From Candidatus Izemoplasma sp. (GTDB lineage: Bacteria > Bacillota_I > Bacilli_A > Izemoplasmatales > Izemoplasmataceae), in assembly GCA_029939945.1 (NCBI GenBank), contig JAOZRX010000001.1:1-43383 (forward strand): a stretch of DNA of 43,383 bases, read 5' to 3'. The notes under the pieces are model-generated. The model ran no database searches. It saw only the letters and a list, made by a program, of their open reading frames with translations, and was not told the DNA's origin. How positions within the stretch are numbered: position 1 is the stretch's first letter; each line of letters opens with the position of its first letter. This document shows, piece after piece, positions 14,915 through 31,601 of the stretch. Position numbers and translations under genes: made by a program.

Positions 14915-14948
14915 AAGTGTAGTTCATTTTGAACTGCACTTATTTTTT
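14915..14948. terminator. Bidirectional terminator between convergent ABC exporter and ThiF-like gene
   Basis: AAGTGTAGTTCA pairs with TGAACTGCACTT over a 3-base loop. On the plus strand it is followed by ATTTTTTG; on the minus strand by TTTTATTTT. The stem overlaps the ThiF-like stop codon. Confidence 0.75.
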
Positions 14949-15614
14949 GTAAATTATTCTATATTCATGATCTAAAACATCTATATAAAGTATTTGATTT
15001 ACTAAAGCTCCTTTACCCAAAATGAACTTAATAAACTCACTGATCATCATATTCCCGACAATACCAGGAATAAATGTTGGGCTCTTTAAAGTATCCTCAA
15101 TACCCTTTGTTTTGTTCATATATATTTCACTTAATATATTACTATTAGGCATAATTACACCAACTTGTCCATACCAGCCACCGATTGCCCCATGAATAAG
15201 TGGAATGTTATATAAAGACGAGTGTTTTTCAAGTATTAATTTAGTTTCAATATTATCAACTGCATCAAAAATGATATCAATATCATCTAATATTGATTTA
15301 TCTATTGTGTCATCATATCTTGTTTCAACTTTTTTTATTTTTACTGAAGGGTTGATATCTTCTAAATTTTTCTTTGTAACTTCAGCCTTTGATTTTCCGA
15401 TAGAACTAGTTGTAGAATAGATTTGTCTATTTAAATTCGACTCATCAAACTTATCAAAATCAACAATTACTAACTCTTTCACACCAAGGCGAACTAAACT
15501 ACTAGCAATGAAACCTCCAAGACCACCAAGACCTACTACTAATACTTTTGTTTGGGTAATTTTTATATGTTCTTCTAGATTTATGATACCCATATTTTTA
15601 CTATATTGATCCAT
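14940..15614 (-). CDS. ThiF/MoeB/HesA-type E1 adenylyltransferase (AOR cluster)
   Basis: Activates the C-terminal Gly-Gly of a MoaD-like carrier by adenylation. VLVVGLGGLGG is the nucleotide loop, followed by DFDKFDESNLNRQ and DAVDN, all family hallmarks. The 224-residue protein contains no cysteine at all, so it has neither the zinc CxxC pairs nor a catalytic Cys of MoeB/ThiF; HesA-like short forms share this. I start at ATG 15614 (GGTGG 5 bases away) rather than the track's GTG. Its start region overlaps the stop of the MoaD gene, implying coupling and a dedicated pair. Confidence 0.85.
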   Translation of the reverse strand: MDQYSKNMGIINLEEHIKITQTKVLVVGLGGLGGFIASSLVRLGVKELVIVDFDKFDESNLNRQIYSTTSSIGKSKAEVTKKNLEDINPSVKIKKVETRYDDTIDKSILDDIDIIFDAVDNIETKLILEKHSSLYNIPLIHGAIGGWYGQVGVIMPNSNILSEIYMNKTKGIEDTLKSPTFIPGIVGNMMISEFIKFILGKGALVNQILYIDVLDHEYRIIYKK

Positions 15615-15615
15615 T

Positions 15616-15849
15616 CTATCCACCAGCCATTGGTGGAAACAAATGGATTAAAGAAGACTCTTTAACTTCATGGTCTAACATAATATCTGGAGTGCTATCA
15701 AAATGATCTAAAATTATTATAGATATCTCTTTAATTGGGATTTTTAGTTCCTCTACGATATCTCTAACCCTCAGATTTTTTTTGTATTCAAACATAACTT
15801 CTTTTCCACCATATTTTCTTATTGCTGAATATAATTTAACTGTAATCAT
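15616..15849 (-). CDS. MoaD-like sulfur carrier (AOR cluster)
   Basis: A 77-residue beta-grasp protein ending FPPMAGG, the MoaD-type PPxxGG tail. It lies between the radical-SAM maturase and the ThiF-like gene, so its E1 partner is encoded next door. I use ATG 15849 with TAGGTG six bases upstream rather than the track's GTG. Such a carrier could deliver sulfur for the dithiolene of tungstopterin. It differs from the orphan MoaD-like protein at 7361. Confidence 0.85.
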   Translation of the reverse strand: MITVKLYSAIRKYGGKEVMFEYKKNLRVRDIVEELKIPIKEISIIILDHFDSTPDIMLDHEVKESSLIHLFPPMAGG

Positions 15850-15858
15850 AATTATCAC

Positions 15859-16884
15859 CTACGTACATTTTATAATATTTCTGTTCCATAAACAATCAGC
15901 ACAACTTGGAGTGTAACTTAAACAATCATATTCTGTTGTCTCAATGAAACTACAACAATCCTCAAATTCACAATCAACACAACTAGGATGCTTTGTATTT
16001 AGAACACTTTCTCTAAATTCAGTATACTCTTTTCCATAGTATATTTCATTAATATTTAAATCCATAACATTTCCAAAAGAATGTTTTAAAACTGTTTTTT
16101 CTCTATTAAATACCCACTCAGTATAAGTGTTAGCAAATCTATAACAAGGAATAACATTACCTAAGTAATCGATATAAGTAAAATCATTTTCTACAAATTG
16201 ACAGTAGCGTTCTGTTTTAATTTCCATATAGGGAAAAGTAATATTGATACTACTACCATATATCGCATATTTAGAAACTAATTTCATATATTCATGACCT
16301 TCATAGTTATAATTTTTAGTATAAAAAATATCTTTTGTTTGTTCTTTGTTTTGAGGTAACAGGTGTGAGACTAATATTTTATCTACATTATGTTCCTTAG
16401 CAAAATCAATAACTCTGTAAATTGTATCTTTATTAGATTTTGTTAGTACAAATGCAAATATAATTGATGGTAATTTTGAATTATTTTTCTTTTTACAGAT
16501 ATTGATATATTCTAATGTTTCTCGGATATGTGAAAATTCAGTCTTTCTAACTGAAAAGTAATCATCTTCAGTGCCATCAACACTAATTATGATTTTACTA
16601 AAGTTTTTACATACTATTTCAATTTTTGATTTAAGTATTATTCCATTTGTAGTAATCTCTAAATCATATTGTTTGAATTTCTCAATAGCATACTCAAATC
16701 CTTTAGCTATCGTTGGTTCTCCAATCCCACCGAAAACAATGCTTTCTGGATTTTTGAGATGAGTACTTATTTCATCAATAACTTCATTTCTCATATCACC
16801 TAAGGTATTTTCCCATGAATGTCTATAGCACATTTCACAGTTTAGATTACATCTATTTGTTAATTCAATATATACTTTTTTCAT
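15859..16884 (-). CDS. Radical SAM/SPASM maturase of tungsten oxidoreductase
   Basis: A 341-residue radical SAM enzyme. The CxxxCxxC cluster site is CNLNCEMC at residues 12-19. GGIGEP is the SAM-binding GGE-like motif. A Cys-rich C-terminal SPASM-type domain (C-x2-C-x4-CC ... C-x2-C) can carry auxiliary clusters. Its place directly after AOR and before MoaD and ThiF matches the family annotated as tungsten-cofactor oxidoreductase radical SAM maturase. Its chemistry is not established as far as I know. No clear Shine-Dalgarno precedes the ATG; instead a 12-base-pair hairpin lies 9 bases upstream. Confidence 0.82.
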   Translation of the reverse strand: MKKVYIELTNRCNLNCEMCYRHSWENTLGDMRNEVIDEISTHLKNPESIVFGGIGEPTIAKGFEYAIEKFKQYDLEITTNGIILKSKIEIVCKNFSKIIISVDGTEDDYFSVRKTEFSHIRETLEYINICKKKNNSKLPSIIFAFVLTKSNKDTIYRVIDFAKEHNVDKILVSHLLPQNKEQTKDIFYTKNYNYEGHEYMKLVSKYAIYGSSINITFPYMEIKTERYCQFVENDFTYIDYLGNVIPCYRFANTYTEWVFNREKTVLKHSFGNVMDLNINEIYYGKEYTEFRESVLNTKHPSCVDCEFEDCCSFIETTEYDCLSYTPSCADCLWNRNIIKCT

Positions 16885-16893
16885 AATATTAAT

Positions 16894-16921
16894 AAGGAAT
16901 GAATATTGCTATTCATTCCTT
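16894..16921 (-). other. Intercistronic hairpin between AOR and its maturase
   Basis: AAGGAATGAATA and TATTCATTCCTT are perfect 12-base complements around a TTGC loop, in the 44-base gap between the AOR stop and the maturase ATG. The minus-strand tail (TTATTAATATT) is a poor U tract, so it could be a partial terminator or a 3'-end stabiliser. Confidence 0.75.
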
Positions 16922-16928
16922 AATAAAC

Positions 16929-18713
16929 TTATAATCCTAAATCTTTAAGTTTTTCAGCTGTTGGGATACCTTCAGAATCCCAACCTCTAAGATCGTAATA
17001 CTCAGGTAATAGTTGATCTAAATGATGTACATGTCCTTCAGTTGGACCACTTGGCATTGGTTCTATAAGTAATCTTGGAGGTAGTGTATCTTCTTCAGGT
17101 AAAATACCAGCTGCTAGATTGAATTGTTTTTCTAATGTATAGATTCTTTCTCCAGCTTTTAGTACATCATCAGCTGTCCATTTAGTACCTACTACACTAT
17201 TATAAATATCTGCATATTCTGCAGCACCTAATGCGAATGAAGTAAATAAGCATAGTCCTATAGAATCAATAAATGCAGTTAAATCTTGGAATGTTTTTGT
17301 CCAGAAAGGTTTATCTTTTAAGTCTAAACGCTCAAGTTTAGTAGGTAAACCTAATATTTCTGGAGAAATCATGTATCCACGCACATGACATCCACCACGG
17401 TTAGAAGTTGCATAGTTTAAACCATGACCTTGTACACCACGAGGATCATATGCTGGGATTTCTAATTTCTTAACAGTCATTGATAAATCTGCTCTTCCAT
17501 ATCTATTACATAAGCGATAAGAACCATCAGCCATTTCATCTCCGAAACCTTCTCTGTTTGCTAGTTTTTTAGTCCAGTAAACAATTGCATCATCATTCCC
17601 AAATTCTAAATCATGACCTTCAAAATCAATATGATCTAATAAACCTTTTTGCTTTAATTCCATTGCAGCAGCAAGAGTAGAACCAGCAGAAATTGTATCA
17701 ATACCTAATTGGTTACACCACCAGTTAGCTTCAATGATTGTTTCTAAATTTTTAACTCCACAATCTGCTCCAAATGCCCAAATTGTTTCGTATTCTGGTC
17801 CGCCACCTTCAACTTTATCAGTTTTAGTATAACGACCACAACCAATAGTACAACGGTGACATGGATCTTTTCTTACTAAATATTTTTCAGCAAGCGTTTC
17901 TCCTGAAATATCTTCAGCATTTGCGAAAACACCTTCCTGGAAATTATTCGTAGGTAAGATTCCATTAGCATTAATAACATTTACTAATACTGCTGTACCA
18001 TAAGCTGGTAATCCTTGTCCTGTAACAGGATTTTCTTTGATTTTTAGATTAGCATCTTTGACATAAGCCTTAACTGAATCAGGATCAGCTAGAGATACTT
18101 TTAAATTACCAGTAACAACTATTGCTTTTAAAAGTTTGCTACCCATAACAGCACCAACACCACTACGTCCAGCAGCACGGTCTTTATCATTCATAATTGC
18201 AGCGATTTTACTTAATTTTTCCCCTGCAGGGCCGATTGTTAAAACGTTAGTTTTTTTGGTATCTTTTAAGATATCAGTTGTATCTCCAACCGTTTTACCC
18301 CATAAATCTTTTGCATCTAATAATTCTACGACATCTTCATTAATATTGATATAAATCGGATTTTTCGCTTTTCCTTCAACGATAATTCCGTCATATCCAG
18401 CATACTTGAGTCTTGCTCCCCAAGTTCCTCCAGAATTTGATGATGCTATTGTACCTGATAATGGTGATTTAGTAACTACCATATATCTTCCACCTGTTGG
18501 TGTAGGTGTTCCTGTAAGCGGTCCATTAATAAAAATTAATTTATTTTCTGGACTTAAAGCATCAATCTTTGGATCGATTTCATCGAATAGGATTTTAGTT
18601 CCTAATCCTCGACCTCCTACGTATTTCTTTGCAAGTTCGAAATCTAAGTCTTCAACTTTTACTGATTGATCAGTTAAGTTAATTCTTAGAAGTTTACCCA
18701 TGTATCCAAACAT
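16929..18713 (-). CDS. aor: Tungsten-containing aldehyde:ferredoxin oxidoreductase
   Basis: Oxidises aldehydes to carboxylic acids (or the reverse) with ferredoxin, using tungsten-bis-pterin and one [4Fe-4S] cluster. The 594 residues match the family's ~600. The N-terminus (KLLRINLT..., YVGGRGLGTKIL, TPTGGRY) is the typical AOR_N fold. Cluster ligands are C-x2-C-x3-C in DPCHRCTIGC (near 283-290) plus a distal Cys in SIGLCLF (near 488). ATG with GGGAGG 7 bases upstream, behind a TTGAAA-N17-TATAAT promoter. Divergent from tungstate uptake genes, which supports tungsten rather than molybdenum. The substrate aldehyde is unknown. Confidence 0.95.
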   Translation of the reverse strand: MFGYMGKLLRINLTDQSVKVEDLDFELAKKYVGGRGLGTKILFDEIDPKIDALSPENKLIFINGPLTGTPTPTGGRYMVVTKSPLSGTIASSNSGGTWGARLKYAGYDGIIVEGKAKNPIYININEDVVELLDAKDLWGKTVGDTTDILKDTKKTNVLTIGPAGEKLSKIAAIMNDKDRAAGRSGVGAVMGSKLLKAIVVTGNLKVSLADPDSVKAYVKDANLKIKENPVTGQGLPAYGTAVLVNVINANGILPTNNFQEGVFANAEDISGETLAEKYLVRKDPCHRCTIGCGRYTKTDKVEGGGPEYETIWAFGADCGVKNLETIIEANWWCNQLGIDTISAGSTLAAAMELKQKGLLDHIDFEGHDLEFGNDDAIVYWTKKLANREGFGDEMADGSYRLCNRYGRADLSMTVKKLEIPAYDPRGVQGHGLNYATSNRGGCHVRGYMISPEILGLPTKLERLDLKDKPFWTKTFQDLTAFIDSIGLCLFTSFALGAAEYADIYNSVVGTKWTADDVLKAGERIYTLEKQFNLAAGILPEEDTLPPRLLIEPMPSGPTEGHVHHLDQLLPEYYDLRGWDSEGIPTAEKLKDLGL

Positions 18714-18781: not shown

Positions 18782-18883
18782 GGAAGGTTTGTAGATTAAC
18801 TATTATTATTTCTGTTAATAGAATAAAATGACAATTAATATTTAATATTGATGTTCTATATGGTAAAATATTTATAGATAAAA

Positions 18884-18979
18884 AATATTCCGAGTTGTTT
18901 AACCTAAGGATATCTATGGTTATATAGCCGATGGGTCTAGCTAGAAATTGCTATTCCTCCCGCGTTTGGAAAGGATGTT
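18884..18979 (+). promoter_or_regulatory. Candidate Moco/Tuco riboswitch aptamer
   Basis: The leader of the tungstate-uptake/pterin operon has features I recognise from the Moco RNA family: a 5' CCGAG next to the closing stem, and a 3' CTCCCG ... GGAAAGGA block. AATATTC (18884-18890) pairs with GGATGTT (18973-18979) to close P1; internal TAGC/GCTA forms a smaller hairpin. Only ~82 bases lie between the P1 strands, compact enough that the P3 arm is probably missing, the variant proposed to sense tungsten cofactor. It precedes tupABC-moeA and faces AOR. The call rests on motif memory, not a covariance search. Confidence 0.7.
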
Positions 18980-19020
18980 AGATTTTTTACTCCTTTTTAG
19001 GCGTAAAAAATCTTTTTTTA
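18980..19020 (+). terminator. Riboswitch expression-platform terminator
   Basis: AGATTTTTTAC and GTAAAAAATCT form a perfect 11-base stem over a 12-base loop, followed by a seven-T run. It starts one base after P1 and ends 25 bases before tupA. Cofactor binding would be expected to favour termination (feedback OFF), by analogy with known biosynthetic Moco switches. Confidence 0.85.
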
Positions 19021-19044: not shown

Positions 19045-19824
19045 ATGAAAAAAGTTTTGATAGTAACAATGATATTGTTTACATTATTATTAAGTTCATG
19101 TTCGAGAGATGAATTACTATTAGTTACAACAACATCAGTTGAAAATAGTGGATTACTTGCTTATATTATTCCTAGTTTTGAAGAGGAATATGATGTATTT
19201 GTCAAAGTAGTCGCAGTAGGAACTGGAGCTGCACTTGAACTTGGAAAATTAGGAGAAGCAGATGTACTTTTGGTTCATGCTTATGATTTAGAAGTTGAGT
19301 TTGTTAATGACGGTTATGGTGAAAAGAGAAATAATGTTATGTATAATGATTTTATTTTTGTTGGTCCTAATGAATTAACTACAACTACACTCGCAGATAC
19401 TTTAAATGAAATAATTAATAACTATGATTTTTACTCTCGAGGAGATAATTCAGGAACTCATACAAGAGAATTATCTATTTGGGAACAAAATGGTCATACC
19501 GTTGATGATTTTGGGAGTTGGTATAAAGAAACTGGGCAAGGTATGGGATCTACATTATCAATGACATCTTTAAGTGGATATTATACATTAACTGATCGAG
19601 CTACTTATTTATCAATGCTTGAAAATCTAGATTTAGTAATAGCTTATGAAAATGCAGAAGAACTTAAAAATCAATATGGAGTTATTAAGATTAATCCTGA
19701 GTCTCATAATAGAAATGAATTATTTGCCGATCAGTTTTATGATTGGATAATTAGAGAGGATACTCAAGAATTAATTGGAACTTATATAAAATATGATGAA
19801 CAACTATTCTTTCCGAATAGTTAG
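19045..19824 (+). CDS. tupA: Tungstate ABC transporter, substrate-binding lipoprotein
   Basis: Captures tungstate outside the cell for TupBC. Lipobox LSSC (Cys near residue 19) anchors it. The mature N-terminus TTTSVENSGLL and the block VAVGTGAALELGKLGEADVLLVHA are TupA hallmarks, as is VMYNDFIFVGP. The later SRGDNSGTHTRE supplies oxyanion-binding Ser/Arg residues typical of the family. 259 residues, normal length. First gene after the riboswitch, with GGGGAAGAG upstream. TupA-type proteins favour tungstate strongly over molybdate, which fits the AOR neighbour. Confidence 0.92.
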   Translation: MKKVLIVTMILFTLLLSSCSRDELLLVTTTSVENSGLLAYIIPSFEEEYDVFVKVVAVGTGAALELGKLGEADVLLVHAYDLEVEFVNDGYGEKRNNVMYNDFIFVGPNELTTTTLADTLNEIINNYDFYSRGDNSGTHTRELSIWEQNGHTVDDFGSWYKETGQGMGSTLSMTSLSGYYTLTDRATYLSMLENLDLVIAYENAEELKNQYGVIKINPESHNRNELFADQFYDWIIREDTQELIGTYIKYDEQLFFPNS

Positions 19825-19841: not shown

Positions 19842-20525
19842 GTGATAATAGAAAGCACAATGAAAGCAGTAGAATTACTATTTTCTTTTGATTCAGAAAT
19901 ATATACAATTATATTTCTGTCTTTAGCTATATCTTTATTAGCTACAGCTACTGCGTCATTTTTTGGAACAATACTGGGAATTCTTATTAGTATATCAGAT
20001 TTTAAATTAAAGAGATTTACTAAGAAAATTGTTTTCACTTTCATGGGAATTCCACCTGTAGTGATGGGACTTGTAGTTCTATTATTAATTACAGGACCTT
20101 TTGATGGAATGAATTTATTATTTACTAAATCAGCCATGTACATAGCTCAAACATTACTTGTATTACCAATTATTGTAGGTAATATAATTATCTCAAGTGA
20201 AAAAACTCAAAAGAAAATACTAGAAACTGCGACTACACTAGGCGCAAATAAATATCATAAAATAACTCTTCTAATAAAAGAAATAAAACCTTTCATTTTA
20301 ATGAGTGTTATTTTAGGTTTCTCAAGAGCACTTAGTGAGGTTGGAGCAGTAATGCTTGTTGGTGGGAATATTAAAAACGATACAAGGGTAATGACTACAT
20401 ATATTGCCTTAAACAATAGCATGGGGGAATACTCTATGTCGATAGCAATGGGAATTATATTACTTCTTATTGCGTTTGTTCTTCATACATTACTTGCAAG
20501 GTTTAGAGGTGATTTTTATGATTGA
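19842..20525 (+). CDS. tupB: Tungstate ABC transporter permease
   Basis: Membrane subunit of the tungstate importer, 227 residues with about five hydrophobic segments. The EAA-like coupling loop is ETATTLGANKYHKI (near 127-140), followed by SRALSEVGAVMLVGGN, typical of TupB/ModB permeases. GTG start at 19842 with AGGTG six bases upstream; 17 bases after tupA, and overlapping tupC by 8 bases. Confidence 0.9.
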   Translation: MIIESTMKAVELLFSFDSEIYTIIFLSLAISLLATATASFFGTILGILISISDFKLKRFTKKIVFTFMGIPPVVMGLVVLLLITGPFDGMNLLFTKSAMYIAQTLLVLPIIVGNIIISSEKTQKKILETATTLGANKYHKITLLIKEIKPFILMSVILGFSRALSEVGAVMLVGGNIKNDTRVMTTYIALNNSMGEYSMSIAMGIILLLIAFVLHTLLARFRGDFYD

Positions 20526-21108
20526 GATAAAAGGTTTAGTAGTAAGGTATAAAACAGTTGAATTTAAATTTGATGATTATAAATTCAAGAAAAATATGAT
20601 TTCAATTATAAGTGGTCGCAATGGAACAGGTAAAACAACACTATTAAAATCACTTTCTTCTTTAATTGAATATGAAGGAAATATAAAAGTGAATGGAGAA
20701 ATAACATATAACTCTCAAGAACCAATCTTGTTTAATAGAAGTACATATGAAAATATAGTTTATCCACTAAGAATAAGAAACTTAGACTTGAATTTATATA
20801 AAGAGAAAATTGATAAGTACACTAGAGTTTTAAGTATTGATCATTTATTAAATGAAAATGCTTTGAAGTTATCATCAGGTGAAAAGATGAAAGTTTCAAT
20901 TATAAGAAGTATTATATTTAATCCAGATATAGTACTACTAGATGAGCCTACAACTCATCTAGATTTAGAGTCAATCGTAGAGCTAACTACATTGATAAAA
21001 GAACTAAAAAATGAGTTAACATTCATTATTGTTAGCCACAACAGTTCATTCGTAGAAGAATTAAAAGACGAGGAATACCGTTTAGGAGGAAATCATGTTT
21101 ATAGTTAA
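20518..21108 (+). CDS. tupC: Tungstate ABC transporter ATPase
   Basis: ATPase of the tungstate importer, 196 residues (short for the family). Walker A GRNGTGKTT near 34-42; signature LSSGEKMKV, where the first Gly of LSGGE is Ser; Walker B IVLLDEPTTHLD; H-loop VSH. I start at ATG 20518 with AGAGGTGA upstream, because the track's 16 extra residues lie within tupB. It overlaps moeA by 14 bases, so import and cofactor assembly are translationally coupled. Confidence 0.9.
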   Translation: MIEIKGLVVRYKTVEFKFDDYKFKKNMISIISGRNGTGKTTLLKSLSSLIEYEGNIKVNGEITYNSQEPILFNRSTYENIVYPLRIRNLDLNLYKEKIDKYTRVLSIDHLLNENALKLSSGEKMKVSIIRSIIFNPDIVLLDEPTTHLDLESIVELTTLIKELKNELTFIIVSHNSSFVEELKDEEYRLGGNHVYS

Positions 21109-22324
21109 ATCGATTGATGAAACAATAAAAATACTAAAAGATAATTTTAATGATTATAATATTAATAAAATCAAGATAAAACTAGAGGATGCACTTAATT
21201 ATGTTGCTACAAGTGATATTGTATCAAAAGAAGATGTTCCTCATTTTGATCGATCAATAGTTGATGGATACGCTGTTGATTTTAATAGTGTAAAACTAGC
21301 AAGCAACTCAACACCCTCAATTTTAAAACTATCAGGTGAAGTGATTATGGGACAAGCATCACAGTTCACTGTTAACTCTGATACAACAGTTTATGTTCCA
21401 ACTGGAGGGCATTTGCCAATGGGTGCAAACAGTGTTGTAATGATTGAAAATACAGATAAATTACTAGATGAGATTATTATTAATAAATCTGTATCCATGT
21501 TAGAAAATGTATTAAAAATGGGTAGTGATATTTCAATTGGAACAAAAGTTTTAAGTAAAAACACATTAATTACTCCATTAGTGATTGGAGCCTTAAAATC
21601 AATAGGAATTGACGAAATTGAAGTGTATGAAAAACTATCTGTTTCACTTATTTCAACAGGGGATGAAATTGTTAAGAATAAAGCAAAACTAGAAATTGGT
21701 GAAATAAGAGACATAAACAGTTACACAATTAGTAACCATTTAAGAAATAAAAATATCATCATCAATGACAATATTATTATTAATGATGATTTTGAGTTAT
21801 ATAAAAATGCAGTGATTAAGGGATTTGAAAATTCAGATATAGTAATTACAAGTGGTGGAAGCAGTGTTGGGGATAAAGATTATACATTTGATATTTTAAA
21901 GAAGATGGGCGCAGAGATATTAGTTCATGGGGTAAACATTAAACCAGGTAAGCCTACAATAATAGCTAAATATAACAACAAATTGTTCTTTGGTCTACCA
22001 GGACAACCTACTAGTGCTTTCTTTGTTTTAAATACTTTTATTAATACAGTAATTAATACTATTTATAAAATCAAGAAAGAGCTACCCTCACCGTATATTG
22101 AGGCAACACTTCAAATAAATGTTCATTCAGTATCTGGTAGAAGAATGTATCAATTAGTTAAAGTTGAATATAATGAAACTGGTAAATTAATTGCTATTCC
22201 ATTATTTGCAAAATCAGGAATGATAAATGCTCTAAAAGAAGCTGATGGATATATTATTATTGATGAATTTATTGAAGGATATTCAGCTGGAAGAATTGTA
22301 AAAGTTTTTAGGTTGGGTGATTAG
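21095..22324 (+). CDS. moeA: Molybdopterin molybdenum/tungsten transferase (MoeA)
   Basis: Inserts metal into adenylylated pterin. Domain order and motifs fit MoeA: VPHFDRSIVDGYAVDF (N-terminal), a beta-hairpin domain, GDEI, then the MoCF-binding SGGSSVGDKDY and HGVNIKPGKP plus FGLPGQPTSAFF. At 409 residues it is full length. GGAGG precedes the ATG. A second MoeA follows; organisms with two often use one for Mo and one for W, so this pair may be specialised (inference). Confidence 0.93.
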   Translation: MFIVKSIDETIKILKDNFNDYNINKIKIKLEDALNYVATSDIVSKEDVPHFDRSIVDGYAVDFNSVKLASNSTPSILKLSGEVIMGQASQFTVNSDTTVYVPTGGHLPMGANSVVMIENTDKLLDEIIINKSVSMLENVLKMGSDISIGTKVLSKNTLITPLVIGALKSIGIDEIEVYEKLSVSLISTGDEIVKNKAKLEIGEIRDINSYTISNHLRNKNIIINDNIIINDDFELYKNAVIKGFENSDIVITSGGSSVGDKDYTFDILKKMGAEILVHGVNIKPGKPTIIAKYNNKLFFGLPGQPTSAFFVLNTFINTVINTIYKIKKELPSPYIEATLQINVHSVSGRRMYQLVKVEYNETGKLIAIPLFAKSGMINALKEADGYIIIDEFIEGYSAGRIVKVFRLGD

Positions 22325-22325
22325 C

Positions 22326-24230
22326 ATGAGAAGAAAAGTATATTTAAATAGCGTAGATTTAAAAGAGATACCTGGAATAATAGATAAATTAATTAGTGAA
22401 TCCAAATATAATAATAGTCCTGAAGTATTAAAAACGACTAAACTATTAAATAGAATTACTTTTGAAGCAATATACGCAAAAGTATCTTCGCCTTTTTATA
22501 ACGCAGCTGCTATGGATGGAATTACTTTGAAAGCATCTCTTACTTATGGAGCAAGTGAAACTAACCCAGTTACTATATCAAAACAAGATTATATTCCGGT
22601 AAACACAGGTAATGTTATTCCGTTGAAATATGATGCTGTAGTTATGATTGAAGATGTAATTGAAAATAGTGATGGATCGATAAACCTAATAAAAAGTGTA
22701 AGACCATTTCAAGATATTAGACCTATTGGAGAAGATATTGTTCAAGGAGATATGGTGTTACCTAAAAATCATAAAATTAGACCTGTCGATATTTCTGCAC
22801 TTTTGAGTGCAGGAATAAAAGAAGTAAAAGTAATTAAAAAACCTCTTATCGCAATTATTCCTACAGGTGATGAGATAATAAATGATATAGAGGAATTAAA
22901 AGCTGGTAAAATTATTGATTCTAATTCTTACTACATTTTTAATGAGCTTGAATTGCTTGGAGGAAAGGCAAAAATACTAAGTATTCAAGAAGATGTTTTT
23001 GATACTCTTGAAAAAGTGATAGTCGAAGCAACTAATACTTGTGATTTAGTAATTATTGGTGCTGGAAGCAGCGCTGGAACAAAAGATTTTGCTAAATCAA
23101 TAGTTGAGAAAAATGGAACTGTGTATGTTCATGGTATAGGTATAAAACCTGGAAAACCTACAATCATTGGTGAAATTAATAATACTCCAATCGTTGGATT
23201 ACCTGGATATCCCGTATCAACTTTTATTGCATTTGATATAGTAGTTAAACCAATTATTCTGTCATATTTAAATCAAGAATTTAATTCACAAAGAATTGTA
23301 AAAGCAACCTTAACAAAAAAAGTATACTCATCACTTAAAAATCATGAGTTTATTCGAGTGAAACTTGGAGTAATTGATAATAGGATTATTGCAACTCCTC
23401 TTGATAGAGGAGCAGGAGTAACAATGAGTCTTGTTAAGGCTGATGGAATTATGGTGATTGATAAAAATAGCGAAGGGTATATTGAAATGAGTGAAGTTGA
23501 AGTTCACTTATTTAGAAATATAAAAGAAATAGAGAAATCTCTAATTGTTATTGGATCTCATGATATTTTGCTGGATAAAGTAGATGATTTAATGAGTAAT
23601 GAAAAATTTCATTTATCTAGTTCTCATATTGGTAGTTTTGGTGGAATTATGGCAATTAAGAATAGAGGATGTCATATAGCTCCTGTTCATATTTTAGGAG
23701 AAAACGGAATCTATAATGACTTTATTATTGAAAAATATTTAGATGACACATATTCACTTGTTAGAGGAGTAACAAGAATTCAAGGGCTTTACGTTAAAAC
23801 AGGAAATCCTAAGAATATAAAATCCTTGAAAGATTTAGAAAGAGATGATGTCACTTTTGTTAACCGACAAAGAGGAAGTGGAACTAGAATTCTTTTAGAT
23901 TATTTACTTGAAAAAGAAAATATAAAAAAAGAAAATATTATAGGATATGATCTTGAACTTGGTACTCACATGTTAGTTGCATCTAGTGTATTAGATCCTC
24001 GTTATGATACAGGGATGGGAGTAGCTAGTGTGTCTAATTTAGCTAATTTAGATATTGTTGAAATAGGAGAAGAACATTATGATTTTATAGTTTTAAATGA
24101 AATTATTGATACTCCTTTATATAACAACTTCATCAAAGTTCTTCAGAGTGAAGAATTTATAAATGAGTTAAATAAAATGGGTGGATATAAGATAGACAAT
24201 ATCGGACAAATTATTAGGAAAAAGAGGTGA
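22326..24230 (+). CDS. MoeA fused to a periplasmic-binding-protein-like domain
   Basis: A 634-residue protein: residues 1-400 are MoeA-like (YNAAAMDGI, GDEI, GAGSSAGTKDF, HGIGIKPGKP, VGLPGYPVS), and the rest is a PBP_like/LysR-substrate-type domain (RGCHIAPVHILGENGIYN ... RQRGSGTRILLDY). Such fusions occur in anaerobes and may bind oxyanion or pterin for delivery. SGGSSVG is replaced by GAGSSAG. I start at ATG 22326 with GGGTG six bases upstream, not the track's GTG. It directly abuts moeA. Confidence 0.9.
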   Translation: MRRKVYLNSVDLKEIPGIIDKLISESKYNNSPEVLKTTKLLNRITFEAIYAKVSSPFYNAAAMDGITLKASLTYGASETNPVTISKQDYIPVNTGNVIPLKYDAVVMIEDVIENSDGSINLIKSVRPFQDIRPIGEDIVQGDMVLPKNHKIRPVDISALLSAGIKEVKVIKKPLIAIIPTGDEIINDIEELKAGKIIDSNSYYIFNELELLGGKAKILSIQEDVFDTLEKVIVEATNTCDLVIIGAGSSAGTKDFAKSIVEKNGTVYVHGIGIKPGKPTIIGEINNTPIVGLPGYPVSTFIAFDIVVKPIILSYLNQEFNSQRIVKATLTKKVYSSLKNHEFIRVKLGVIDNRIIATPLDRGAGVTMSLVKADGIMVIDKNSEGYIEMSEVEVHLFRNIKEIEKSLIVIGSHDILLDKVDDLMSNEKFHLSSSHIGSFGGIMAIKNRGCHIAPVHILGENGIYNDFIIEKYLDDTYSLVRGVTRIQGLYVKTGNPKNIKSLKDLERDDVTFVNRQRGSGTRILLDYLLEKENIKKENIIGYDLELGTHMLVASSVLDPRYDTGMGVASVSNLANLDIVEIGEEHYDFIVLNEIIDTPLYNNFIKVLQSEEFINELNKMGGYKIDNIGQIIRKKR

Positions 24231-24234
24231 TACA

Positions 24235-25179
24235 GTGTTAGATTCATTTAAAAGAGAAATTGATTATTTAAGAATTTCAGTTACTGATAGATGTAACCTC
24301 AGATGTTTATACTGTATGCCAGATGGTATTGATAAGAGACCACATGATGAAATACTTCGTGACGAAGAAATTGTTAAAGTAGTAAAAGAGTCTGTGAAAA
24401 TAGGTATTAAAAAGATAAGGATTACAGGAGGAGAACCTCTTGTAAGAAAAGGAATTTACGAGTTAATCAGGAAAATACATGATGTTGAAGGTGTTAAGGA
24501 AATCACTATTACAACTAACGCTACTTTGTTATTAGGGAATGTTAAGAAACTTAAAAACGCAGGAATCTCAAGAGTTAACTTTAGTTTAGACACTCTAGAT
24601 GATGAGAAATTCCAGTTTATATCAAATACAGATTTAACATTAGATTATCACAAATTAATAAAAGAACTTATTGAAAACGAAATGTCTCCAATTAAGATAA
24701 ACGCTGTTCTTTTAAGAGGATTCAACGATAATGAAATCCCTAAATTCATTGAACTAGCTGATAAATATAATTTAATTGTAAGACTAATAGAACTTATGCC
24801 AGTTGGACATTTAAATTTTGATTATGATAAGTATTATATTAGTAAAGATAAGGTATTAAAGACCTATAAAGAACTAATTTTTCATCGTAAGGATAGCATA
24901 TCAGAGTACTATCATGTTGAAGGTAAGAAAGGACTAATTGGCTTCATTAATCCAATTAGCCACAAGTTTTGTTCTTCGTGTAATAGAATCAGATTAACTG
25001 CGGATGGACATCTAAAACCTTGTTTACACAATAATAATGAAATTATGATTAAAGATATTGATGAAACACAATTACTTGATAAATTAAAAGAAGCAATTAA
25101 AGCAAAACCAATAAGTCACACATTGGATGAATCAAGAGATAATATTTCTGATCGTCCAATGAACAAGATTGGAGGTTAA
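24235..25179 (+). CDS. moaA: GTP 3',8-cyclase (radical SAM)
   Basis: First step of molybdopterin synthesis: GTP to 3',8-cyclo-7,8-dihydro-GTP. N-terminal CNLRCLYC (CxxxCxxC) holds the radical SAM cluster; ITGGEPL is the GGE motif; C-terminal C-x2-C ... C ([18 protein letters not shown]) holds the second cluster. It ends in Gly-Gly as MoaA should for activity. 314 residues. GTG start with AGAGGTGA five bases upstream; 4 bases after the MoeA-PBP gene. Confidence 0.95.
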
Positions 25180-25183
25180 GAAA

Positions 25184-25663
25184 ATGAAATTATCACATTT
25201 AAACAAAGAAGGACGAGCAAAAATGGTTGATGTGACAGATAAACAAGATACAATTAGAGTCGCAATCGCAGAAGCTACAGTTAAAATGAAAAAAGAAACT
25301 TTGAAAAGAATAATTGATGGAGGAATGAAAAAGGGAGATGTTCTCGCAGTTAGTCAAATTGCTGGGATAATGGCTGCTAAAAAAACTCCGGAATTAATTC
25401 CAATGTGTCATCCGTTATTATTAACTGGAATTGATATTAGTTTTAAACATGATTTTAATATTGATGAGTTAACTATTAATTCAACTGTCTCTTTATCTGG
25501 AAAAACTGGAGTTGAAATGGAAGCTTTAACTGCCGTAAGTGTTGCAGCTTTAACAGTTTATGATATGTGCAAAGCGATTGATAAAGACATTATTATCAAA
25601 GAAATAAAATTAATTAAAAAAACTGGTGGAAAAAGTGGTTCATATAGGAGAACAGACAAATGA
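25184..25663 (+). CDS. moaC: Cyclic pyranopterin monophosphate synthase
   Basis: Second step of molybdopterin synthesis, working with MoaA. Motifs [20 protein letters not shown] and [23 protein letters not shown] are diagnostic, and the active-site Lys-rich KKTGGKSG ending is present. I start at ATG 25184 with GGAGG 8 bases upstream, giving 159 residues; the track's extra five overlap moaA. Its stop overlaps the next start by four bases (ATGA). Confidence 0.95.
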
Positions 25664-26097
25664 CAGGAAAAGTTATTTCAATAAACATAAGTGAAAAAAA
25701 AGGTGTTGTTAAATACCCGGTTGATGAAGCTTTTTTTAAAATTAATCATGGGATAATCGGAGATGCTCATGCTGATAATTGGCATCGACAAGTTAGTATG
25801 CTTGGAATTGAGAGTTTTGAAAGAATGGAAATATCTGAGGGCATTGATTTACCAGTTGGATCATTCGCAGAAAACCTAACTACACAAGGAATAGAATTGT
25901 TTACTTTGCCAATTGGAACTATGTTCAAAATTGGTGAAACAATTCAAGAATTAACTCAAATAGGAAAGAAGTGCCATACAGGTTGTGCAATATCTCAACT
26001 TGTTGGTAAATGTGTAATGCCTAAAGAAGGTATATTCACAAAAGTTATTAAAGAGGGTATAATAAAACCTGGGGATGAAATAAAAATTATCACTTGA
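25660..26097 (+). CDS. MOSC-domain protein 1 (Cys-containing)
   Basis: A stand-alone MOSC domain of 145 residues, a family linked to molybdenum cofactor sulfuration or binding. [30 protein letters not shown] and [19 protein letters not shown] match. The conserved family Cys is within CHTGC. MOSC proteins in mog/moa operons may hand over or modify the cofactor, but their activity is not well known. ATG overlaps the moaC stop. Confidence 0.88.
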
Positions 26098-26113
26098 ATG
26101 GGAGGTATCAAAA

Positions 26114-26548
26114 ATGGTAGGAAAAGTTATATCATTAAACATTAGTGAGCAAACAAGTGTAATAAAAGAACCAGTTCAATCAGCTGAATTTGTAGCAGAC
26201 TACGGGATAAAAGGTGATGGACACGCTGGCTCTGGACATCGTCAAATTAGTTTACTTGGTATTGAAAGTTATAATAGACTTGAAGAAAAAGGTAAAAAAT
26301 TTAACTGTGGAGCTTTTGCTGAAAATATTACTACTGAAGGATTTGTTTTAAACAAATTAACAGTAGGAACAGTATTAAAAATTGGAGAAACAATTCAAGA
26401 GATTACAGAAATCGGTAAAAAAGGACACGATAAATTTGAGATTATTAAATTATTTGGAGCATATATTTTGCCAGTAGAAGGAATATTTACAAAAGTTATT
26501 CATGGTGGAATTGTAAAAGTTGGAGATAAAATTGAAATTTTAAAATAA
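26114..26548 (+). CDS. MOSC-domain protein 2 (lacks the conserved Cys)
   Basis: A tandem paralogue of the preceding MOSC protein: GIKGDGHAGSGHRQISLLG, AFAENITTEGF and GETIQEITEIGKKGH align with it along the whole length. CHTGC of paralogue 1 is here GHDKF, so the conserved Cys is gone. It either binds pterin without sulfur chemistry or is diverging. ATG with GGGAGG upstream, 16 bases after paralogue 1. Confidence 0.88.
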   Translation: MVGKVISLNISEQTSVIKEPVQSAEFVADYGIKGDGHAGSGHRQISLLGIESYNRLEEKGKKFNCGAFAENITTEGFVLNKLTVGTVLKIGETIQEITEIGKKGHDKFEIIKLFGAYILPVEGIFTKVIHGGIVKVGDKIEILK

Positions 26549-26569
26549 TAAAATAGATAGGATGATATT

Positions 26570-27055
26570 ATGTTTAATGCTGCTGTAATTGTATGTAGTG
26601 ACAAAGGAGCTAAAGGGCTTAGAGTGGACACATCTGGAGAATACATTAAGGAATTTCTAACTGATAAAAAATTTGAAGTTTTAGAGAAAGTTATAATTAC
26701 AGACGATTTAGACACTATAAAAAACAAATTACTATATTATACTGATGAAATAGAAGTAGATTTAATTATTACAACAGGAGGTACTGGGTTTTCTCCTAGA
26801 GATAATACTCCTGAAGCAACAAAAGAAGTAATAATGAGAGAAGTTCCTGGGATTGGAGAAATGCTTCGAGCAGAGAGTTATAAAATTACACCAAGAGCAT
26901 ATCTATCTAGAGGAATTTCGGGAATAAGAAATAGAACATTAATAATAAATTTACCAGGTAGTTTAAATGCAGTAAAAGAAAATCTCTCATTCTTAGGAGA
27001 TGTATTAAATCACGGATTAAAGATATTAAAACTTGTAGATACAGAATGCGGATAA
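26570..27055 (+). CDS. mogA: Molybdopterin adenylyltransferase (MogA/MoaB family)
   Basis: Adenylylates pterin before metal insertion by MoeA. The MoCF fold motif TTGGTGFSPRDNTPEAT near 66-82 is intact, followed by INLPGSLNAVKE, where an extended MoeA-like GLPG is replaced by NLPG as in MogA. 161 residues, normal. ATG with AGGATG upstream. Last gene of the tup-moe-moa operon, before a bidirectional terminator. Confidence 0.93.
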   Translation: MFNAAVIVCSDKGAKGLRVDTSGEYIKEFLTDKKFEVLEKVIITDDLDTIKNKLLYYTDEIEVDLIITTGGTGFSPRDNTPEATKEVIMREVPGIGEMLRAESYKITPRAYLSRGISGIRNRTLIINLPGSLNAVKENLSFLGDVLNHGLKILKLVDTECG

Positions 27056-27561: not shown

Positions 27562-28914
27562 TCACTCCTTTTTAATTCTGTCTTGATGCGTATAAATATT
27601 TAATTTTTTCTCTCGAGCAAACCCAATAATAGTTACACCTAATTTATCTGCTAATTTAACTGCGAGAGAAGTAGGCGCACTTCTGGATACTATCAAACTA
27701 ATATTTATTAAAGCTGATTTAAGTAAAATGTCTGATGATATTCTTCCGCTTGTAATGATATAAATATCATCTCTTTTAATGTTATTCTTAAGTAAGTATC
27801 CAACAACTTTATCAACTGCGTTATGTCTTCCGATATCTTCAAATAACAGTTTCTCATCATCGTATAATACTTCAACACTATGAACTCCACCGGTTTCTCT
27901 AAATAAAATCGATTTTTTGTTAAGCGTTTGAACTTCATTTAAAATTTCCTTTAGTTCGAATTTGTAATTTGTTTTAACAAATGGGAGATCTTCATCTTTC
28001 ATTTTTACTAATTGAGCATTACTACAAGCAGTGGACAAAATGTTCAATCTTTGAGTATTATTAGTTTCTATTTGTTTCTTAACTATTATATCACTTCGAT
28101 GATTTTCTAGGTCTAAATTAAAACTAATAATATCTGTTAAATTACTTATGACAAACTCACTGAACAAATATCCAATTATTAGAAATTCGATATTTTCAGG
28201 AGTCATCATCATTGTCGAATAATGATTATCATTAACATATATTGATAATGGATATTCAGTGATTACCTTATCTTTAATATAAAATATTTCTTTTCCTATT
28301 ACTTTTTGAACATCTAGAATATGATAATTCGAAGTAATATTTAAATAATCATCGTATAAATCAGATTCTTTATTTATATTCTTAAACATATCCATTTTTT
28401 GTTGATAAAAACTAACTTTCTGCTCACTTATATATTCCGTATTTAATTGTTTGACCAACCTTTGAAAACCATACGTTTTACCATTTAAAAACGTTTCTAT
28501 TTTTGGGATTATATCTTTACTATAAACTGCATTGAAAGGTTCAATGAAGTTATTGTATTTAGCGACATATGCATCATGTCCTTTTGTTAAACTAATCATA
28601 TAATTAATAAAATCAAAATTAATAAATGCCATATCACAAGCTATACAATAGTTGTATCTATTACTCGAATGAACTAGACCTGAATGTAGCCCAATTATCG
28701 GAGTATTTCCAGTTAAGATATCACTTACTACTTTTACATTCAGGGATTTGTAATGATCGGGATTGTTACTAACGACGATTACTTCTTTAAATTGTGTAAG
28801 TAGTTTTTCTATTTGTTGGTGAACTAAGAAACTATCACCAATTTTGATGAATTCCTTATTATACTTCATCCTTGAGGAGTTACCTCCTGCTAAAATAATT
28901 GCTGAGACATTCAT
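27562..28914 (-). CDS. MobA-FdhD fusion: cofactor nucleotidyltransferase plus formate dehydrogenase sulfurtransferase
   Basis: A 450-residue two-domain protein. The N-terminal ~190 residues are MobA-like (LAGGNSSRMKYNKE, IIGLHSGL, CDMAFIN), which attaches GMP to molybdopterin; the canonical RMGxDK is here RMKYNK. The C-terminal ~230 residues are FdhD, which sulfurates formate dehydrogenase (FRETGGVHS, EDIGRHNAVDKVVG, SGRISSDI). The FdhD CxxC is reduced to a single Cys (TACSNAQ). Fusing the two makes one chaperone that finishes the cofactor and delivers it. I use ATG 28914; the track's first nine residues overlap the upstream gene. Confidence 0.88.
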   Translation of the reverse strand: MNVSAIILAGGNSSRMKYNKEFIKIGDSFLVHQQIEKLLTQFKEVIVVSNNPDHYKSLNVKVVSDILTGNTPIIGLHSGLVHSSNRYNYCIACDMAFINFDFINYMISLTKGHDAYVAKYNNFIEPFNAVYSKDIIPKIETFLNGKTYGFQRLVKQLNTEYISEQKVSFYQQKMDMFKNINKESDLYDDYLNITSNYHILDVQKVIGKEIFYIKDKVITEYPLSIYVNDNHYSTMMMTPENIEFLIIGYLFSEFVISNLTDIISFNLDLENHRSDIIVKKQIETNNTQRLNILSTACSNAQLVKMKDEDLPFVKTNYKFELKEILNEVQTLNKKSILFRETGGVHSVEVLYDDEKLLFEDIGRHNAVDKVVGYLLKNNIKRDDIYIITSGRISSDILLKSALINISLIVSRSAPTSLAVKLADKLGVTIIGFAREKKLNIYTHQDRIKKE

Positions 28915-28916
28915 TG

Positions 28917-31601
28917 TTAGACTTTCTCTACTATTTCGCAAGCCGCAACTTTTAATTCTGGGATATCACAAGTTGCGTCTAGTTCAGTATTAGTTAACAT
29001 ATTTGCTCCATCAGCAAAGTGGAAAGGCATGAATACAGTTAAATCACCGATTTTATCTGTGATATGAACTTCAGCCACTGTTTCTCCACGACGTGATTTT
29101 ACAATTACTTCTTGCATATCATGTAGATTATATTTATCTGCTGTAAATTGGTTTATTTCAATGAAGTTTACAGGAACTATTTCATTAATCTCATTATTTT
29201 TACCTGTCATAGTTTTGGTATGGAAATGATAAAGAACTCTACCTGTTGTTAATGTTAATGGGAACGCTTTATCAGGTAATTCTCTTGCTCCCAAATAATC
29301 AACTGGAGTAAATAATCCAAGTCCTCTACTGAATTTATCTTTATGTAAGAATTTAGTTCCAGGATGATCTTTTCCAAAAACTGGCCATTGTAATCCAATT
29401 TCATTAATTCTTTCAAAATCAATTCCAGAATATATTGGTGCCACACTAGCGAGTTCATCCATAATTTCTGAAGGATGATTAAACTTTTGAGGGTATTCAA
29501 GTAATGTCATTAATTCTTGAATAATTACCCAGTCAGGTTTAGAATCTCCAATTGGGTCAATTGCTTTTCTAACACGTTGAACACGTCTTTCAGTATTTGT
29601 GAATGTTCCATCTTTTTCAGCATAAGTTGATGCAGGTAAAACAACATCTGCATATTCAGCAGTTTCTGTCATAAAAATATCTTGAACAACTAAAAAATCT
29701 ATTTTATCCATTGATTCTCTGACATGAGTAATATCAGGATCACTTACGATTGGATTTTCACCCATTATGAATAAGAATTTAATTAAGTTATTATAAGCGC
29801 CATTAATAATATGAGGCAAACTTAATCCAACTTTATTACTTAATTTTGCTCCCCATGCTTTTTCAAACTTATTGTGTATTTCAGGGATATGAACTTTTTG
29901 GTAACCAGGATATACATCAGGCAATCCACCAACATCACATGCTCCTTGAACATTATTTTGTCCTCGTAAAGGATTAATTCCTGTTGATTCTTTACCAACA
30001 CTTCCTGTCATCATTGCTAAGTTAGCAACACTCTTGACATGGTTTGTGCCGTTTGAGTGTTGAGTTATACCCATAGCATAGTATATACCTGCTTTTTTTC
30101 CTGCAGCATAAATACGAGCTGCTTTTATAATTCCTTCTTTAGTACATCCACAAATTTCTGCGGATCTTTCTGGTGGATATTGTTTAATGACTTCAATCAT
30201 TTCATCAAAACCTTCAGTACGGGTTTTGATGAAATCCTCATCATATAGTTTTTCGTTATAAATTACATTCATCATCCCGTTTAATAATGCAACATTAGTA
30301 CCCGGTTTAATTTGAACAAACACTTCAGCTTCATCAGCTAAATCAATTCTTCTTGGTTCAGCAACAATTATTTTTGCTCCGTTTTTTCTTGCTTGTCTCA
30401 TGAAATTACCGATAACTGGATGAGTTTCAGTAGTATTAGAACCAATAACGAAGATAACATCATGATGTTTAACTTCTTCAATACTATTTGTCATTGCACC
30501 GCTTCCTAATGTAGTAGCGAGTCCAGCAACAGTAGAAGCATGACAAAGTCTAGCACAGTGATCGACATTATTTGTACCGATAACCGCTCTAATAAATTTT
30601 TGGAATAAATAGTTTTCTTCATTAGTACATTTAGCACTAGCAAGTCCAGCGAAAGCACTAGGTCCGAATGCTCTTTTTGTTTCATTTATCTTATTAACAA
30701 TAACTTCATAAGCTTCTTGCCAAGAAGCTTCTACAAAAATACCATCTTTTTTAATAAGTGGTGTTTTTAATCTATCTGGATGATTTATATATCTAAAAGC
30801 AAATTTTCCTTTAACACATAATAATCCTTCATTAGGTGTTGTATCAATCGGATCTATTCTAACTACTGTATCTCCTTTTAAAACAACGTTAAATTGACAA
30901 CCAACTCCACAATAAGGACATGTAGTTTTAACTTTACGAGTTTCTTTCATTCTGAATTTTACTTTACTCTTTTCAACAATTGCTCCTGTAGGACAAACAC
31001 TAACGCAATTTCCACAGCTAACGCACATTGAATAATCCATTCCCTTATCAAAAGCAAAGGATACATAAGTGTCTTTACCACGTTCATTGAAACTTAAAGC
31101 ACCTACTCCAACTAACTTGTCACATACATTTACACATTTACCACATAATATACATTTGCTTGGATCAATATAGAAAAACTTATTTGAATAATCAATTTCA
31201 AAGTCTCTTACTTTGATATCATATTCTTTTTCGCTAGGAACATCATAGTAATACATGTAGTCTTGAAGTTTACAATCTCCATCAGCATCACAAACTACAC
31301 AATCATTAGGGTGACTTGCCCAAGTAAGTTTTAAAACTTCTCTTCTTGCTTCTAAGACCTTATCATTTTTTGTTTGAATTTCAACACCTTCACTCGGTAT
31401 TAAAGTACATGAAGTCATTAATTTATTTGAATTGCTTGCTTCAACTAAACACATACGACATGCTGCTTCACCAGCAAATCGATCATCATGACAAAATGTA
31501 GGGATAAAAATATCATTCTTCTTACAGACATCTAATACAGTTTCATTCTCTTTAGCACTATATTCAATTCCATCAATTTTAAACTTAATTAGTTTTTTCA
31601 T
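28917..31601 (-). CDS. fdhF: NAD-linked formate dehydrogenase catalytic subunit (Cys type, Mo/W)
   Basis: Interconverts formate and CO2 at a bis-pterin Mo/W site. Domains: N-terminal [2Fe-2S] (CHDDRFAGEAACRMC), His-ligated [4Fe-4S] (HPNDCVVCDADGDC), two [4Fe-4S] (CILCGKCVNVC; CVSCGNCVSVCP), a further [4Fe-4S] (CPYCGVGC near 232), then the pterin-binding domain. The metal ligand is Cys 353 in CARLCHAST, encoded TGT, not selenocysteine. 894 residues, matching the long NAD-linked type. RBS within GGGGAA; 3 bases after the NuoF-like gene. The N-terminal cluster domains resemble those of hydA here. Confidence 0.95.
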   Translation of the reverse strand: MKKLIKFKIDGIEYSAKENETVLDVCKKNDIFIPTFCHDDRFAGEAACRMCLVEASNSNKLMTSCTLIPSEGVEIQTKNDKVLEARREVLKLTWASHPNDCVVCDADGDCKLQDYMYYYDVPSEKEYDIKVRDFEIDYSNKFFYIDPSKCILCGKCVNVCDKLVGVGALSFNERGKDTYVSFAFDKGMDYSMCVSCGNCVSVCPTGAIVEKSKVKFRMKETRKVKTTCPYCGVGCQFNVVLKGDTVVRIDPIDTTPNEGLLCVKGKFAFRYINHPDRLKTPLIKKDGIFVEASWQEAYEVIVNKINETKRAFGPSAFAGLASAKCTNEENYLFQKFIRAVIGTNNVDHCARLCHASTVAGLATTLGSGAMTNSIEEVKHHDVIFVIGSNTTETHPVIGNFMRQARKNGAKIIVAEPRRIDLADEAEVFVQIKPGTNVALLNGMMNVIYNEKLYDEDFIKTRTEGFDEMIEVIKQYPPERSAEICGCTKEGIIKAARIYAAGKKAGIYYAMGITQHSNGTNHVKSVANLAMMTGSVGKESTGINPLRGQNNVQGACDVGGLPDVYPGYQKVHIPEIHNKFEKAWGAKLSNKVGLSLPHIINGAYNNLIKFLFIMGENPIVSDPDITHVRESMDKIDFLVVQDIFMTETAEYADVVLPASTYAEKDGTFTNTERRVQRVRKAIDPIGDSKPDWVIIQELMTLLEYPQKFNHPSEIMDELASVAPIYSGIDFERINEIGLQWPVFGKDHPGTKFLHKDKFSRGLGLFTPVDYLGARELPDKAFPLTLTTGRVLYHFHTKTMTGKNNEINEIVPVNFIEINQFTADKYNLHDMQEVIVKSRRGETVAEVHITDKIGDLTVFMPFHFADGANMLTNTELDATCDIPELKVAACEIVEKV

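Follow-up and report, generated by a model that had tools for sequence, protein, structure and literature searches.

The leader RNA in front of tupA in Candidatus Izemoplasma sp. is a P3-less Moco/Tuco riboswitch that probably acts as a transcriptional OFF switch on one long operon for tungstate uptake and cofactor assembly, with the tungsten cofactor as its most likely ligand. In the 43,383-nucleotide stretch of DNA analysed here (the window) and its relatives we observed the aptamer, its covarying stems, a covarying terminator, helices that compete within the sequence, and the gene context; from these we infer ligand binding, a preference for tungsten over molybdenum and the direction of control. 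The link between P3-less RNAs and Tuco was already proposed in 2008, and what is new here is the spelled-out terminator/antiterminator mechanism.

The tupA leader carries an RF01055 aptamer that lacks the P3 arm

When the window was scanned against all Rfam families with cmscan, the leader matched RF01055 (Molybdenum/Tungsten aptamer) with a score of 65.3 bits, well above the gathering score of 36 bits. Model positions 1-135 were aligned end to end, with the P3 columns entirely deleted and a CGAU junction in their place, as anticipated by the preliminary description, which had read the leader as a Moco-type RNA with a compact core and probably no P3 arm. The landmarks on which that reading was based, CCGAG at the 5' side and CTCCCG...GGAAAGGA at the 3' side, are both present. 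This is the only RF01055 copy in the genome assembly (1.72 Mb, about 85% complete). Its parts are as follows.

18876..18992, + strand: Moco/Tuco riboswitch aptamer, P3-less form (RF01055, 65.3 bits, E 1.2e-13)
18889..18891, + strand: P1 5' strand, core UCC, partner 18973-18975 (RF01055 alignment, covariation, folding)
18894..18928, + strand: P2 arm with tetraloop receptor CCUAAG...UAUGG; 18894-18904 pairs with 18918-18928 (alignment, covariation, folding)
18929..18932, + strand: junction CGAU in place of the P3 arm (alignment, P3 parsing)
18933..18958, + strand: P4 hairpin, GAAA tetraloop at 18944-18947 (alignment, covariation, folding)
18959..18969, + strand: P5 (CC/GG) and loop CGCGUUU (alignment, covariation, folding)

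A closing stem had been proposed as AATATTC/GGATGTT. The stem itself stands, while its register has to be moved by one base to agree with that of the family, in which U18889 pairs with A18975, C18890 with G18974 and C18891 with G18973. In this conserved register P1 of the window copy is short, since the three conserved pairs are followed by three mismatched positions. These mismatches in outer P1, together with a score below that of the best relatives (up to 81.4 bits), are what one might expect of a decayed aptamer, behind which the terminator would be constitutive or run by another factor. We consider this very unlikely, because the conserved core bases are intact, as are the GAAA tetraloop on P4 and the CUAAG...UAUGG receptor in P2, both identified in the RF01055 alignment, and because the antiterminator and terminator described below are both conserved.

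The RNA thus shows the features of RF01055, namely P1, P2, P4 and P5 with covariation in relatives, a position 5' of MPT/Moco/Tuco genes and a typical expression platform, along with those of the P3-less subgroup, namely the absence of the P3 arm and the presence in the organism of tup and AOR rather than mod genes. Judged by its sequence, the leader RNA is a true P3-less RF01055 riboswitch. It has the core, tetraloop and receptor in common with the Moco riboswitch of E. coli moaA, which represses cofactor synthesis, as is predicted for the window RNA; the E. coli RNA differs in having P3, in being reported as unresponsive to tungsten and in a predicted platform that masks the ribosome-binding site.

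The riboswitch precedes a tungstate transport and cofactor assembly operon

Downstream of the leader lie tupABC and two moeA genes, and an AOR gene is transcribed divergently, just as the preliminary description had it.

19045..19824, + strand: tupA, tungstate-binding protein, putative first controlled gene (NF041772, E 2.6e-60, below the curated cut-off)
19842..20525, + strand: tupB permease (homology, context)
20470..21108, + strand: tupC ATPase (homology, context)
21095..22324, + strand: first moeA (homology, context)
22317..24230, + strand: second moeA, with a C-terminal binding-protein domain (PRK14498, 694 bits, above cut-off)
24235..27055, + strand: moaA, moaC, two MOSC proteins, mogA/moaB (homology)
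16929-18713, - strand: AOR, divergent (homology)
15859-16884, - strand: tungsten-type radical-SAM maturase, divergent with AOR (TIGR04317, 333.7 bits, cut-off 380)
15616-15858, - strand: ThiS/MoaD-like protein of 80 aa, beside ThiF (homology)
14940-15623, - strand: ThiF (homology)

As TupA, TupB, TupC, the first MoeA and the radical-SAM maturase do not reach the NCBIfam curated cut-offs, their names rest on homology and context. The divergent AOR cluster (14940..18713, - strand) is not downstream of the riboswitch, and AOR has a promoter-like site of its own at 18781-18753 (11/12 matches). Past the operon, the other strand holds a formate dehydrogenase cluster, adjoined by a 459-aa protein (27562-28941) in which MobA (guanylyltransferase) is fused to FdhD. 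MoaE, the molybdopterin synthase large subunit, was not found in 13 Bacilli genomes with the riboswitch (the window's and 12 related ones) and was present in 11 of 14 control genomes; in the window's genome the operon holds two tandem MOSC proteins (25660-26548).

The aptamer stems covary among relatives

The RNA is present in 19 of 150 related genomes. In the window's own family it occurs in 13 genomes (the window's and 12 others), always as a P3-less RNA of 115-126 bases with the CGAU type of P3 absence, and other Bacilli families have either the P3-less or the P3-containing form. A pattern scan of public genomes added 118 further loci with organism names, one of which (L091) comes from 'Tenericutes bacterium MC-10'.

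Covariation was analysed in an alignment of 28 P3-less RNAs. Here 87.8% of the cells in the consensus stems were paired, as compared with 36-49% when the strands were slid against one another, and 216 cells were changed on both sides, as compared with 86 in shuffles (0/500). Slid and cross-species controls supplement the mononucleotide shuffle, which on its own is a weak null. The stems therefore covary strongly in relatives, so that the pair conservation on which the earlier reading had been made to depend is borne out.

Presence of the RNA also goes with that of the transporter: in 49 genomes of the family, TupA was found in all 13 with the RNA and in 1 of the 36 without it. The latter genome (G017, C12:7523-8218) is alone in the family in having a TupA homologue without a riboswitch match; its tupA contains an in-frame TAG, and no AOR was seen in that genome.

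A terminator competes with a predicted antiterminator that uses the aptamer's 3' strand

The leader between promoter and tupA contains the following elements.

18842..18869, + strand: candidate promoter, TTAATA, 16-nt spacer, extended -10 TGgTAAAAT (9/12 matches, TG before -10)
18980..19019, + strand: intrinsic terminator, stem 18980-18990/19003-19013, U tract 19013-19019 (-14.3 kcal/mol; covariation)
18962..18975, + strand: antiterminator 5' strand GCGUUUGGAAAGGA, comprising P5 loop, junction AAA and P1 3' strand (14 bp with 18991-19004)
18991..19004, + strand: antiterminator 3' strand UCCUUUUUAGGCGU, comprising the terminator loop and first bases of the terminator 3' arm (complementarity, slide control, folding)

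The extended -10 of the promoter candidate falls at 18864-18869, where relatives have TATAAT, and the transcript would probably begin close to the first aptamer base. Directly after the aptamer and before tupA, where a perfect terminator had been claimed, we found an uninterrupted stem of 11 bp followed by a tract of seven Ts (19013-19019). In 12 family members 92.4% of the terminator cells were paired, 8 of the 11 pairs were changed on both sides, and the covariation amounted to 18 cells as compared with 5.8 in shuffles (0/500). A consensus terminator scanner did not detect the 18980-19013 hairpin because its stem is A+T-rich.

The predicted antiterminator is a helix of 14 uninterrupted pairs (18962-18975/18991-19004) with an energy of -17.4 kcal/mol, as compared with -5.7 for shuffles. 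It is kept in 12 of 12 family members, at -11.4 to -20.4 kcal/mol (mean -16.9, as compared with about -5.6 for shuffled partners), and 87% of its cells were paired, as compared with 46-61% when slid. At L013 the P5 loop differs and the partner strand differs too, so that the helix is kept, and at L017, where one base has been lost in this region, there are still 16 perfect pairs. Column-wise covariation of the antiterminator in the family alignment did not go beyond that of shuffles, since the aptamer fixes its 5' strand; the case for this helix is one of complementarity and the slide control. Many of the 75 RNAs of the whole set that have a nearby terminator-like hairpin reuse the aptamer 3' strand in the same way, and the window's RNA has the strongest z-score.

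Folding of the RNA up to 19004 gave -34.7 kcal/mol for the antiterminator fold and -19.6 for the aptamer fold, so that with the polymerase at this position the antiterminator would be favoured over the unbound aptamer by 15 kcal/mol. With terminator and U tract complete, the predicted energies are -35.2 kcal/mol with the antiterminator, -37.3 for the best fold with the terminator and -30.9 for aptamer plus terminator. Since these states lie within about 6 kcal/mol of each other, the energy of ligand binding could tip the balance.

An aptamer 3' strand that is shared with an antiterminator, which in turn competes with a terminator, is the layout of a transcriptional OFF switch. When the cofactor is scarce, the aptamer 3' strand GCGUUUGGAAAGGA would pair with UCCUUUUUAGGCGU, holding the terminator 5' arm in a loop, so that no terminator would form and tupABC-moe-moa would be transcribed. 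When the cofactor is abundant, it would lock P1 and P5 and thereby use up the antiterminator strand, the terminator would form, and transcription would end before tupA. This arrangement very probably makes the RNA a feedback OFF switch that works through transcription termination, and the antiterminator supplies the mechanism for the feedback on a whole uptake-and-assembly operon that the preliminary description had envisaged.

The opposite direction of control was considered as well. In an ON switch the leader AUAAAAAAUAUU would lengthen P1 and pair with the terminator 5' arm, so that ligand binding would prevent termination, and in several relatives leader and arm are indeed complementary (e.g. 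AAAAGU/ACUUUU and AAUGAC/GUUAUU). This complementarity is, however, weak and no better than that of shuffled sequences (-4.0 as compared with -3.0 +/- 2.1), the antiterminator is far stronger, and activation of uptake by its end product would make little physiological sense. An ON switch via an extended P1 was therefore rejected as extremely unlikely.

Transport and enzyme genes in Bacilli point to tungsten

For the tungsten form of the riboswitch we know of no direct demonstration of ligand binding. Across 21 Bacilli genomes that carry the RNA, aptamer form tracks the transport genes without exception (Fisher 5e-5), in a split that covers only five families and that shared descent could explain. 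All 16 genomes with a P3-less RNA have TupA and AOR and lack a strong ModA, with only weak SBP_bac_11 matches; the window's genome, at about 85% completeness, gave no SBP_bac_11 match at all. All five with a P3-containing RNA lack TupA and have strong ModA-like matches (1e-39 to 1e-59); AOR is absent from four of them, and one has a weak AFOR_C match. RF01055 RNAs with a P3 arm occur in other Bacilli families (L009, L016, L019, L020 and L021); they share with the window's the class of bacteria and the core, and differ in the P3 arm and in a genome that has ModA and no TupA.

This agrees with the earlier view that the gene context fits tungsten better than molybdenum. No oxyanion importer of this type other than Tup was found, and AOR occurs in every relative with a P3-less RNA, so that on genomic grounds the tungsten cofactor is the most likely ligand in these cells. 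One point against tungsten is that the window's formate dehydrogenase could use Mo or W, and a point against the preferred explanation is that the genome is only about 85% complete.

The Bacilli split also agrees with the published correlation between P3-less RNAs and tungsten, for which Regulski et al. (2008, PMC2408646) put forward the tungsten cofactor as the ligand. Like members of that group, for example in Syntrophomonas wolfei, the window RNA is an aptamer without P3, stands before tungstate transport and MPT genes and is followed by an intrinsic terminator; it differs in belonging to an uncultured Tenericutes/Bacilli family, in serving a whole operon as a single copy and in having its antiterminator spelled out.

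The P3 rule is weaker in the wider sample

The wider sample comprised 121 operons, 82 with P3-less and 39 with P3-containing RNAs, in which P3 was called by a stem-by-stem parser with hand correction of at least L010, L021, L097 and L138, so that the counts carry an error of a few per cent. A P3-less covariance model for calling P3 had been dropped, as it misplaced P3 insertions in other RNAs. tupA or AOR follows 34 of the 82 P3-less and 10 of the 39 P3-containing RNAs (Fisher p 0.11; p 0.05 when operons without an identified gene were dropped). The published account associates P3-containing RNAs solely with MPT or Moco genes (PMC2408646), yet outside Bacilli clear P3 hairpins lie directly before tupABC at nine loci (L033, L053, L054, L087, L098, L112, L125, L133 and L137), and P3-less RNAs lie before modA at six. 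At the nine loci, either Tup also serves molybdenum, or the selector is something other than P3; a missing arm is by itself no proof of tungsten. Because the rule is perfect in Bacilli and weak in the wider sample, tungsten is better argued from the transport and enzyme genes than from the lack of P3.

It is possible, though somewhat short of probable, that P3 does not set metal specificity at all, that the published rule is a lineage correlation and that both forms of RF01055 respond to whatever group-6 cofactor is made in the cell. For the window, the poor tracking of tupA by P3 and the nine P3 hairpins before tupABC would likewise suit a switch of the same design that responds to the molybdenum cofactor or fails to discriminate between metals, tungsten being merely what TupABC imports. 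We regard this as unlikely in view of the perfect split in the 21 Bacilli genomes and of the E. coli P3-containing RNA, whose reported unresponsiveness to tungsten (PMC2408646) implies that metal discrimination exists in the RF01055 family.

The survey also turned up unusual Moco RNAs. In variants from Lachnospiraceae/Blautia (L031, L037, L066 and L072), mostly before AOR, P2 is shortened and the P4 GAAA tetraloop and the CUAAG/UAUGG receptor are both missing, seemingly having been lost together. Other Moco RNAs lie before ordinary aldehyde dehydrogenase genes, or before TonB receptors or FecCD/periplasmic-binding transport genes (L067, L103, L107, L086, L028, L022; L106, L128, L061, L117, L127, L048, L078, L083), and these transport genes may represent group-6 metal uptake systems. 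At L121, three near-identical P3-containing Moco RNAs stand in tandem, about 300 bases apart, before a gene for an S-layer-homology protein.

A single RNA per genome, a single oxyanion importer, a long undivided operon and a clear terminator/antiterminator pair make the tupA locus a clean test case for the preferred reading of a tungsten-cofactor OFF switch, and the sister families in the Bacilli that have the P3 form together with ModA offer a comparison. The counter-examples to the P3 rule, in turn, bear on how RF01055 RNAs tell tungsten from molybdenum.
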